Assembly (NCBI GenBank): GCA_001045525.1
Contig: LDWW01000018.1
Coordinates: 1-64,000 of the forward strand
DNA length: 64,000 bases
Reading direction: 5' to 3'
Source: Chitinispirillum alkaliphilum
GTDB taxonomy: Bacteria; Fibrobacterota; Chitinivibrionia; Chitinivibrionales; Chitinispirillaceae
Positions within the stretch are counted from its first letter, which is position 1, and every line of letters starts with the position of its first letter. Below the pieces are notes generated by a model. It ran no database searches and had not been told where the DNA came from. It saw only the letters and a program-made list of their open reading frames with translations. Below, one piece after another: positions 61,494 through 64,000 of this stretch. The translations under genes and the position numbers were made by a program.

Positions 61494-62420
61494 TTATTCG
61501 AAGTAGGCTGTATCCTGAGATTCTCCGACAAACTCAAGATAATAAATTACTGTTTTAAACAGCTTGTGAATTTCAGACGGGAGTGTAACGTAACCACCAG
61601 AACCAGTATCCTGTCTGATAACCAATGTCCCGTACTCATTATCACCATCTCCGTCCTTTTCAAAGATAAATTTCTTTTTCAAAAACTCTATCTCGTCAGA
61701 GTCAACAAGTTTCCAGTAACAGTTATCTTTACCCTTTGTGAGTACCACAGCATACATGTAAGGAACAGCCCCATCGGGGCCGTCATTGATTGCGACCTGA
61801 AACTGAACCCCGATAAAATCCTCCGACTTTTTTTCCTTCTTCAGCATAAATCTTATATCTTTTGGTATCGGTTTACCGGTTGTATTTTCATCAAAGCTCA
61901 GGTAAGGAGAAAAGAAATATCCTTGTGGTGCCTGAATTTCCGTAAGTTCACTGAAACATTTGTACTTCATCGCCAATTGGTCGGGGAAGTAAACTTCCAT
62001 ATTGCCAAAATAAATAGCAGGCAAAAGAATCAAAAAAGCAGTAACAATCATTTCCATGAATTCGAAATTACCTATAATCAAAGAAATGAAGCCTCCTATA
62101 CCCGCTAAAACTACTGCACCAATAGAGAGATAACACTGAGGCAAGTTCGCTTTAATGATTAGCTCCGATTCCGAGAGAGTTTCACCAAGGCGTTCTATCT
62201 CCTTTTCGCTCACTGGTGCCCAACTCTCAACTCCATGTTGGTAAGGCATGTTGGAAATCGGTTTCATGAGAATAAAAGGATAAGCGGCCAGGATAAAGGG
62301 TAATCCGATCCAGAAATTAGAATAGAAGTCCTGTAAAAATATAGCTGTAGCATAGAGAGATATCATCAGAACTAACCGTAGCCACACAGACAGATTAAGG
62401 TATCTGAATTCACTCTTCAT
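61494..62420 (-). CDS. Membrane protein partner of the radical SAM peptide system
   Basis: A 308-aa protein. Four hydrophobic segments are predicted (about 13-30, 37-52, 97-116, 122-143), in two pairs separated by a polar loop (ESWAPVSEKEIERLGETLSE), followed by a cytosolic or periplasmic C-terminal domain of about 160 residues with FQVAINDGPDGAVPYMYAVV and TLVIRQDTGSGGYVTLPSEI. I do not recognise the family, and it is not an ABC transporter or peptidase by motif. Its start overlaps the stop of the radical SAM gene by 4 bases, so it is very likely part of the same operon. Possible roles are export, immunity or membrane anchoring of the maturase. Confidence 0.82.
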   Translation of the reverse strand: MKSEFRYLNLSVWLRLVLMISLYATAIFLQDFYSNFWIGLPFILAAYPFILMKPISNMPYQHGVESWAPVSEKEIERLGETLSESELIIKANLPQCYLSIGAVVLAGIGGFISLIIGNFEFMEMIVTAFLILLPAIYFGNMEVYFPDQLAMKYKCFSELTEIQAPQGYFFSPYLSFDENTTGKPIPKDIRFMLKKEKKSEDFIGVQFQVAINDGPDGAVPYMYAVVLTKGKDNCYWKLVDSDEIEFLKKKFIFEKDGDGDNEYGTLVIRQDTGSGGYVTLPSEIHKLFKTVIYYLEFVGESQDTAYFE

Positions 62421-63712
62421 TTGTATGTCTTCTCCTTATTTTGATGTAGTTCGCTGGTACCGCATGCTTCCCAGTAGAGGGGGCAGGCCGCCTGACAGGC
62501 ACTGAACGCGCTGCAGTCAAGGCACTCTGAGGGTGCGTACTTTTTTTCTTTGAAATACCTGGCACGATCAGAGTACCATACGGTATCAAATTTTTTCTTT
62601 AACAGATTCCCGATCGGCTCTTCATACGAAGAACACGGGAAAACTTCACCATCACAATTGACGCTGATTAAACCATCCATTGCAGCACATGCTTTATTCC
62701 CTAAACCTCTTGCGACGGGATTAAATTGACAAAACGGTGTGGGAGAATACCAGAAAAAGGTCAGTCCGCACCTTTGCGCCTCAGAGTTAATTTTGTCTAC
62801 TATATCCCCTATTTCGCTATAGGAGATATACAGGTCATGATTTAGCGGATTTTTCCTGGAAGGGATATACATGTTCATTGAGAAGCGGTTGATCCCGAGG
62901 CCTTCCAGAAAAGGAGGCATAGTCTCAATAGTGTCTTTGTTCAGAGCACATATTGTTGTATTTGTCTGCACCGCGATCTGCGCCTTCTTAAGTGCTTTGA
63001 TTCCCTCAATGGTTTTTTCAAATGCCCCCTCAACCCCGCACAGACGATCATGTATCGCGGCCTCAGAGGATTCAAGACTGATCTGTGCAGTCCTGAGCCC
63101 GGCACGGTATAAGGACAAAGCCCTTTCTTCAGTAATCAAAGTGCCATTGCTGATCAGATTTGTCCTGAGCCCCACCTTTAAAGCGTAAGCCACAAGTGTC
63201 TCAAGATCTTTACGCAACAAAGGTTCTCCTCCGGTAAAGGAGAAAAACGGGATTTTTGCCTTGTCCCGAAAAATCCGTATAATTTTTTTTATCTGCCCTG
63301 TTGACATTTCCCGGTAATCACTTCCCCCCGGACATCCGGCATAACAAAAGAGACATCTGTTATTGCACCGCTTGGTTACAGCAATCTCTCCAAGAACTGG
63401 CAGCCGTGTAAAATCAAACTCATATCTGACAGATTCAGTCCGAACACCCTTTCCATCCATACAATCCTGAATATTTCTGAAGAAACGATCAATATCCCTG
63501 ATTCTTTTTTCATTACAATCCGGAATTTTTTCAAGGCTCCCCCCGGCAAACAGATATTTCAACAAACTGGTCCCTGTACTGTTCAGTTTGTAAACCATAT
63601 TGGGGGGAATAATCAGAACATCATCTTCTGCCCGGTAAAGCAGGAACGGCTTCACTGAATTAAACCAGTGTGAAAGCGAAGCTATAGATTCTTTTATCTG
63701 CGAAGATGTCAA
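62417..63712 (-). CDS. Radical SAM/SPASM peptide maturase with a PqqD-like N-terminal domain
   Basis: A 431-aa protein. Residues about 20-90 (FLLYRAEDDVLIIPPNMVYK; LNSTGTSLLKYLFAGGSLEK) look like a PqqD-type peptide-recognition domain. The radical SAM motif is C116-x3-C120-x2-C123 (KRCNNRCLFCYAGC), followed by FFSFTGGEPLLRKD. The C-terminal SPASM domain has CAAMDGLISVNCDGEVFPCS and CLDCSAFSACQAACP, enough Cys for two auxiliary Fe-S clusters. The start is a TTG at 63712: it overlaps the precursor stop as TTGA and has GGGAGG 8 bases upstream, inside the precursor gene. The open frame continues to 63793, but that part is the repeat read in the wrong frame. Such enzymes form C-S or C-C cross-links in peptides. 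Confidence 0.93.
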   Translation of the reverse strand: MTSSQIKESIASLSHWFNSVKPFLLYRAEDDVLIIPPNMVYKLNSTGTSLLKYLFAGGSLEKIPDCNEKRIRDIDRFFRNIQDCMDGKGVRTESVRYEFDFTRLPVLGEIAVTKRCNNRCLFCYAGCPGGSDYREMSTGQIKKIIRIFRDKAKIPFFSFTGGEPLLRKDLETLVAYALKVGLRTNLISNGTLITEERALSLYRAGLRTAQISLESSEAAIHDRLCGVEGAFEKTIEGIKALKKAQIAVQTNTTICALNKDTIETMPPFLEGLGINRFSMNMYIPSRKNPLNHDLYISYSEIGDIVDKINSEAQRCGLTFFWYSPTPFCQFNPVARGLGNKACAAMDGLISVNCDGEVFPCSSYEEPIGNLLKKKFDTVWYSDRARYFKEKKYAPSECLDCSAFSACQAACPLYWEACGTSELHQNKEKTYK

Positions 63713-63933
63713 CGAGCCCTCCCGGAAATGCACGCTGAATGACAGGCACTGTGGCAAGCCGAATGACAGGCACTGTGACAGGCCGAGTAACAAGCCGAAT
63801 GGCAGGCATTATGACAGGCGGAGTAACATACCGAATCAATACCAGCCACATTAGGAGTAAAGCAACCTGAAAAGCAGTTGTTAGACTGCATGAACTCTTT
63901 ACAGGAACCGCTAACTTCCAGTGGCAGGCTCAT
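63709..63933 (-). CDS. Cys-His-Ser-Ala repeat peptide, putative RiPP precursor
   Basis: A 74-aa protein from ATG 63933. The first 35 residues (MSLPLEVSGSCKEFMQSNNC then FSGCFTPNVAGIDSV) have no signal peptide and could be the leader. Residues 36-71 are nine 4-residue repeats C-[HYI]-[SN]-[AG], Cys at 36, 40, 44, 48, 52, 56, 60, 64 and 68; a further Cys pair, 20 and 24, has the same spacing. The C-terminal tail is ISGRAR. Of 74 residues, 12 are Cys. The stop TGA overlaps the TTG start of the radical SAM enzyme, so the two are coupled. The frame extends to a TTG at 63972, but a -10 box lies just there. Alternatives are a metal-binding or CX3CH haem-binding protein, though no export signal is present. 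Confidence 0.78.
   Translation of the reverse strand: MSLPLEVSGSCKEFMQSNNCFSGCFTPNVAGIDSVCYSACHNACHSACYSACHSACHSACHSACHSACISGRAR
63721..63828 (-). repeat. Nine tandem 12-bp units encoding the C-x-S-A repeats
   Basis: Each unit is TG(T/C)-(CAY/TAY/ATT)-(Ser/Asn)-(GCN/GGG). The Ser and Ala codons alternate between TCG GCT and AGT GCC versions, so the real period over most of the array is 24 bp. This points to growth by tandem duplication of a two-repeat unit, with synonymous drift since. Confidence 0.9.
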
Positions 63934-63972
63934 ATTTTCATACCTGGAGGGCAGATGGGTCAAACGGTTCAA

Positions 63973-63978
63973 ATTATA
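63973..63978 (-). promoter_or_regulatory. -10-like box upstream of the repeat peptide gene
   Basis: On the minus strand TATAAT lies at 63978-63973, so transcription would start near 63966, about 33 bases before the ATG at 63933. The -35 region runs into the window edge and is only partly visible, with no clear TTGACA. If real, it makes the peptide gene the first of the operon. Confidence 0.4.
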
Positions 63979-64000
63979 CCAGTTATTCCAGTGATAAGTG

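Follow-up and report, generated by a model that had tools for sequence, protein, structure and literature searches.

What does a radical SAM/SPASM enzyme do with a row of nine cysteines encoded immediately in front of it? The question arises at one end of the 64,000-nucleotide stretch of Chitinispirillum alkaliphilum DNA analysed here (the window, positions 1-64000 of contig C18, which has 81,797 bases; C18 coordinates past 64000 continue the window numbering). A preliminary description, made from the letters of the window, had read three tightly coupled genes there, for a small repeat peptide, its maturase and a membrane protein. The coupling stands: all three genes are real and both 4-base overlaps were confirmed. 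Reading along the minus strand, the repeat-encoding gene overlaps the enzyme gene by TTGA at 63709-63712; the enzyme gene (62417-63712, 431 amino acids) has a TTG start and a GGGAGG ribosome site at 63718-63723, and ends in an ATGA overlap (62417-62420) in which the third gene starts within the enzyme stop. That third gene (61494-62420, minus strand) encodes a 308-residue membrane protein with three to four transmembrane helices and a C-terminal alpha/beta domain. The nine consecutive repeats of C-x-S-A type were also read as described, CYSA CHNA CHSA CYSA CHSA CHSA CHSA CHSA CISG, with nine cysteines spaced four residues apart in a 39-residue segment, CYSACHNACHSACYSACHSACHSACHSACHSACISGRAR, at 63712-63828 of the minus strand.

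The separate small peptide gene did not hold up. The repeat frame has no stop up to the end of the window, and on the assembly contig it continues beyond the window as one open reading frame of 543 codons (C18:63709-65341, minus strand, with its C-terminal part at 63709-64000 in the window), with a GTG start and a GGAGG site in front. The supposed peptide is therefore the C-terminal tail of a 543-residue membrane protein whose gene the window edge had cut, and a small-peptide precursor was rejected; what had looked like a three-gene peptide cluster encodes a repeat-tailed membrane protein together with its two partner genes, to which the Spirochaetota set of relatives described below usually adds a fourth gene upstream.

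From its N-terminus the tailed protein has a signal peptide, an extracytoplasmic domain resembling DUF2207, a transmembrane helix at residues 260-278, a conserved cytoplasmic part, the CxxxC motif CFSGCF (63859-63876, minus strand; both cysteines invariant in 35 sequences) and the repeat tail. The predicted signal peptide and single transmembrane helix would place the tail in the cytoplasm, on the same side as the enzyme. A hydropathy scan also flags residues 329-347, which we take to be a buried helix rather than a membrane span because the stretch carries charges and sits in the conserved part behind the transmembrane helix. The DUF2207 match (PF09972) has an E value of 0.0014 in the window protein, at 19.3 bits against a gathering score of 24.4, and similarly weak matches occur in 5 of 35 relatives (E up to 0.1; best 5.4e-5). 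DUF2207 proteins share with the tailed protein an outer N-terminal domain on a membrane protein, whereas the Cys-His tail and the dedicated radical SAM partner are features of the present system. A DUF2207 protein of Streptococcus mutans has a reported link with tolerance of acid and oxidative stress (PMC10457818), a hint that may point to a role in envelope stress and to nothing beyond it. A profile search of the PDB with the tailed protein gave no credible match, and a structure model built from only two sequences reached a pLDDT of 35. A decayed fragment of a second copy of the tailed gene lies on a separate contig of the same genome (G000:C50:13824-13988, equivalent to L013:1501-1665, minus strand); it is 59% identical over residues 115-168 and is interrupted by two stops, a TAG and a TAA.

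Scanning the whole collection with the enzyme brought up two relatives, 55% and 53% identical, in the metagenome-assembled genomes L037 (Spirochaetes) and L038, both with the three genes arranged as in the window. We then used 294 genomes gathered as relatives around the genome of L037 (here called the Spirochaetota set after the Spirochaetes record of L037 and the choice of relatives made from it). Three separate probes run over these 294 genomes, for the enzyme, the tail pattern and the tail-less body, were positive in 48 (E below 1e-80), 48 and 49 genomes, and they pick the same genomes except where contig ends or runs of N cut a part (G177, G182, G243 and G258 each lack one part in this way). 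The operon is thus known in 49 genomes, that of the window and 48 of the Spirochaetota set. The preliminary description had proposed looking for the same three genes in related genomes, and had held that its reading would fail if the repeat did not stay beside the enzyme. The reading withstood this check: in 46 of 46 loci with a long enough contig, the window's included, the gene immediately preceding that of the enzyme is the tailed gene, and the third gene follows the enzyme in 47 of 49. The tail-less body probe found no homologue among the 294 genomes that keeps the operon and has lost the tail. An apparent fusion of the enzyme to the third gene (L077/G188) was rejected, the join being a run of N, and a search of plasmids with the enzyme at E 1e-40 gave no match. 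The fourth gene encodes a small membrane protein just upstream of the tailed gene in 38 Spirochaetota-set loci (e.g. L037:3540-4187) and has no Pfam match; a search of the window's genome did not recover it, but an empty result there is weak evidence.

The tail is far better conserved than the body that carries it. In an alignment of 35 sequences, pairwise identity is 92% in the tail and 47% in the body. Among 45 tails of 39 residues, pairwise identity is again 92% for amino acids but 77% for nucleotides; all 45 DNA sequences differ and encode 20 protein tails, and a pair of tails differs on average by 17.4 synonymous and 3.1 non-synonymous codon changes, which shows that the tail is under purifying selection. 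Nine cysteines are present in 44 of 46 tails. Simple DNA repeats usually vary fast in length, and this one stays put; L112 (G186), the sole relative one repeat short, has eight cysteines and is a natural length variant, and L113 has an ambiguous base where the tail starts. From repeat 2 onward each cysteine and the alanine before it are invariant, with alanine at all eight positions between successive cysteines. Histidine is invariant in 7 of the 9 repeats (44-45 of 45 tails); its position holds mostly Y or H in the first repeat and V or I in the last, both of which retain the cysteine. Which of S, N, D or Q occupies the third position varies with the repeat. Acidic residues are largely missing (repeat 3 has one D in 28 of 45 tails and S in the others), and the end VSGGAH is conserved as well. 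The matches are not due to chance: none of the 244 Spirochaetota-set genomes without the operon has the tail pattern, and a reversed control pattern is found in 0 of all 294. Nine matches to the pattern in viral contigs proved to be unrelated short tandem repeats.

In the phylum of Chitinispirillum itself the enzyme was found at high score in 1 of 168 genomes, and a looser A-C-x-x pattern found the tail in no other of the 168; the matches in G011, G105 and G057 are three unrelated low-complexity stretches in other frames or on other strands. A misbinned contig is unlikely, as the genes on either side of the operon on C18 (aspartokinase and PhoH) share 80-81% identity with their counterparts in G001, the one further genome listed for the genus. 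In a tree the window enzyme, on a long branch, falls inside the Spirochaetota set, where its neighbours are L037, L038, L075 and L076 (support 94/91). The operon thus likely reached this genome by horizontal transfer from the Spirochaetota side; the long branch makes any exact donor unsafe to name.

The enzyme scores above the Pfam cut-offs for Radical_SAM (PF04055, 102 bits) and SPASM (PF13186, 41 bits). Its CxxxCxxC motif and the SPASM core CX2CX5CX3C are invariant in 37 of 37 enzymes, and eight cysteines besides CxxxCxxC are kept in at least 35 of the 37. The preliminary description had also given it a PqqD-like domain, and this finds some support at the level of the family: the N-terminal 100 residues match the Pfam PqqD model in 9 of 16 members (best E 6.5e-4), but not in the window enzyme alone. 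A PDB search with a profile of the enzyme N-terminus gave no credible match. The nearest solved structures by profile include SkfB, PqqE, SuiB and CteB, and SkfB, SuiB and CteB are cyclases that cross-link peptides. The top NCBIfam scores, in turn, belong to SPASM enzymes of haem pathways, AhbD, NirJ2 and AhbC, with AhbD at 141 bits against a cut-off of 500.

Pairs of a repeat protein and a radical SAM enzyme are a known kind, and most of the cysteine repeats known to be modified by radical SAM enzymes belong to small peptides. One of the closest known systems is PapB/PapA, which makes the ranthipeptide freyrasin: there too a SPASM enzyme acts on many cysteines at four-residue spacing and the precursor gene adjoins. 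PapA, however, is small and has Asp acceptors, whereas the present substrate would be a 543-residue membrane protein whose tail has no regular Asp or Glu, and the enzyme scores 74.3 bits against the PapB model (NF047865; cut-off 340). In QhpC/QhpD, which concern the gamma-subunit of quinohemoprotein amine dehydrogenase, a radical SAM enzyme likewise cross-links part of a structural protein rather than an antibiotic; that system differs in its Asp/Glu acceptors, cleaved leader, export, periplasmic enzyme subunit and want of a repeat array. In the ACGX system (TIGR04340) and for the Cys-Xaa-Xaa-Xaa targets (TIGR04117), repeats of the form Ala-Cys-x-x or Cys-x-x-x have annotated partners of the radical SAM/SPASM kind. 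Here the residue after Cys is His or Tyr, not Gly, a membrane-protein body is attached, and the scores are low (enzyme against TIGR04340, 84.4 bits, cut-off 400; tail against TIGR04117, 9.9 bits, E 0.77, cut-off 50). The His-Xaa-Ser system also pairs a repeat protein with a radical SAM maturase, but its motif is His-x-Ser and the tail is Cys-His-Ser-Ala, reading H-S-A-C; the enzyme scores 67.5 bits against HxsC (TIGR03977), below the cut-off of 267.9.

Apart from the models for the general radical SAM and SPASM domains, no Pfam or NCBIfam family model scores above cut-off for any of the three proteins, and the enzyme's relatives likewise come near the cut-off of no NCBIfam model. The open-access literature yielded nothing on DUF2207 together with radical SAM, on ACGX together with radical SAM, or on the tail motif. 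The system had been put forward as an unrecognised one, and these searches agree. What appears new here, no family match having been found, is the combination of a probable membrane-protein substrate with a Cys-His tail of fixed length.

Very likely, in our view, the adjoining enzyme has the tail as its substrate. The cytoplasmic radical SAM/SPASM enzyme would grip its co-translated partner through a PqqD-like recognition domain and modify the cysteines of the cytoplasmic tail one by one, each sulfur most likely becoming bonded, as a thioether, to carbon in a residue close by. The modified tail would remain on the protein instead of becoming a peptide product and would form a stiff rod or stripe without free thiols, with the membrane-bound third protein holding or presenting it. 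That the reaction joins cysteine sulfur to carbon is, in our estimate, somewhat the better bet, and the thioether guess of the preliminary description is plausible in this respect; that the tail stays attached is probable, since no protease or exporter gene was seen as a conserved neighbour. Taken as a whole, enzymatic cross-linking of the cysteines of an uncleaved, membrane-tethered tail held or presented by the third protein is modestly favoured.

Each half of this mechanism has a precedent, many cysteines in PapB, which works on CX3D units and forms six Cys-to-Asp thioethers (PMC9413430), and an enzyme subunit in QhpD, which forms three Cys-to-Asp/Glu thioethers (PMC7876137). The Asp and Glu acceptors of both enzymes are largely missing from the tail, so the acceptor must be some other residue if thioethers form at all. 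This counts against the preferred reading, as do the haem-pathway enzymes at the top of the NCBIfam scores (all far below cut-off), the missing PqqD match in the window enzyme alone and the invariant histidines, which would also suit metal binding.

A helper role for the third protein is weakly suggested. Its structure model is of medium confidence (pLDDT 62), and the C-terminal domain weakly resembles type III secretion chaperones and YbjN (SycT, Z 7.5; Spa15, 6.5; DR_1245, 5.9; YbjN, 5.8; Foldseek E 0.09). Such Z values are also reached by unrelated models, which makes a chaperone-like holding role a lead only.

The tail could instead be the substrate of another chemistry, in which an invariant His or Ala is modified (for example by a Cys-His link, dehydrogenation or epimerisation) and the cysteines serve as the thiols of the enzyme or the product. 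SPASM enzymes carry out many chemistries, and the near-invariance of His in seven repeats and of Ala between all the cysteines would fit; yet Cys is steadier than His, being retained in the first and last repeats where His gives way, and we regard this as unlikely, if the strongest of the rivals. Slightly more improbable still is a tail that binds a metal or cluster, as a sensor or store whose site the enzyme matures or loads in the manner of a metalloenzyme maturase. With a four-residue period, the nine cysteines and at least seven histidines would fall along a single helix face, and AhbD, NirJ2 and AhbC are the enzyme's best NCBIfam scores; those scores, however, fall far below cut-off, the PqqD-like N-terminal domain suggests peptide binding, and the predicted cytoplasmic location argues against attachment of c-type haem.

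Much less probable is a giant precursor, a RiPP with a membrane-protein leader, from which the tail, once modified, would be cleaved to yield a free peptide product. A cysteine-dense, core-like C-terminus beside a SPASM enzyme with a PqqD-like domain is indeed a RiPP layout, but 500 conserved residues including an outer domain far exceed the needs of a leader, the tail end is itself conserved, and no protease or exporter gene is seen as a conserved neighbour. Highly improbable, in our judgement, is a neutral low-complexity tail beside an enzyme that acts on something else: simple-repeat tails are common, and the viral contigs hold nine similar short tandem repeats with no known enzyme partner, but here the repeat number is fixed, amino-acid change is near zero despite free synonymous change, and linkage to the enzyme is perfect.

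If the preferred reading, a permanently cross-linked tail, is true, there is a real chance that the system represents a new class. We can entertain, tentatively and at rather less than even likelihood, a hitherto undescribed kind of radical SAM product that is not secreted, namely a membrane-anchored protein whose cytoplasmic end its dedicated enzyme makes into a poly-cross-linked rod of fixed length with nine linkages, serving as a permanent structural or redox part and not as a peptide to be released. Because the fixed-length tail is kept across a sixth of the Spirochaetota set, a basic cellular role is favoured over an antibiotic. The operon also offers a clean candidate enzyme-substrate pair that lends itself to testing, with an almost invariant substrate and an enzyme, a body and a helper that each come in at least 49 natural variants.

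Some further features of the window's genome were noted. An identical translated stretch, LLRQLNLHKNFLHLF...RANGSKLLKKNYRVQIRPNHWRMSAFAG, occurs on two contigs (L009:17762-17953 and L013:2765-3163) and is a dispersed repeat, probably non-coding. Further along C18 (74011-75810, L009:18012-19811), a PAAR-like protein is followed by a putative nuclease effector of HNH/AHH type and a possible immunity protein. On another contig (G000:C6:44000-60000, L010), several radical SAM genes resembling AhbC, AhbD and NirJ lie beside tetrapyrrole genes (hemL, hemB, uroporphyrinogen methyltransferase/synthase, hemC and siroheme dehydrogenase), in what looks, to judge by the translations, like a cluster for siroheme-dependent haem synthesis.
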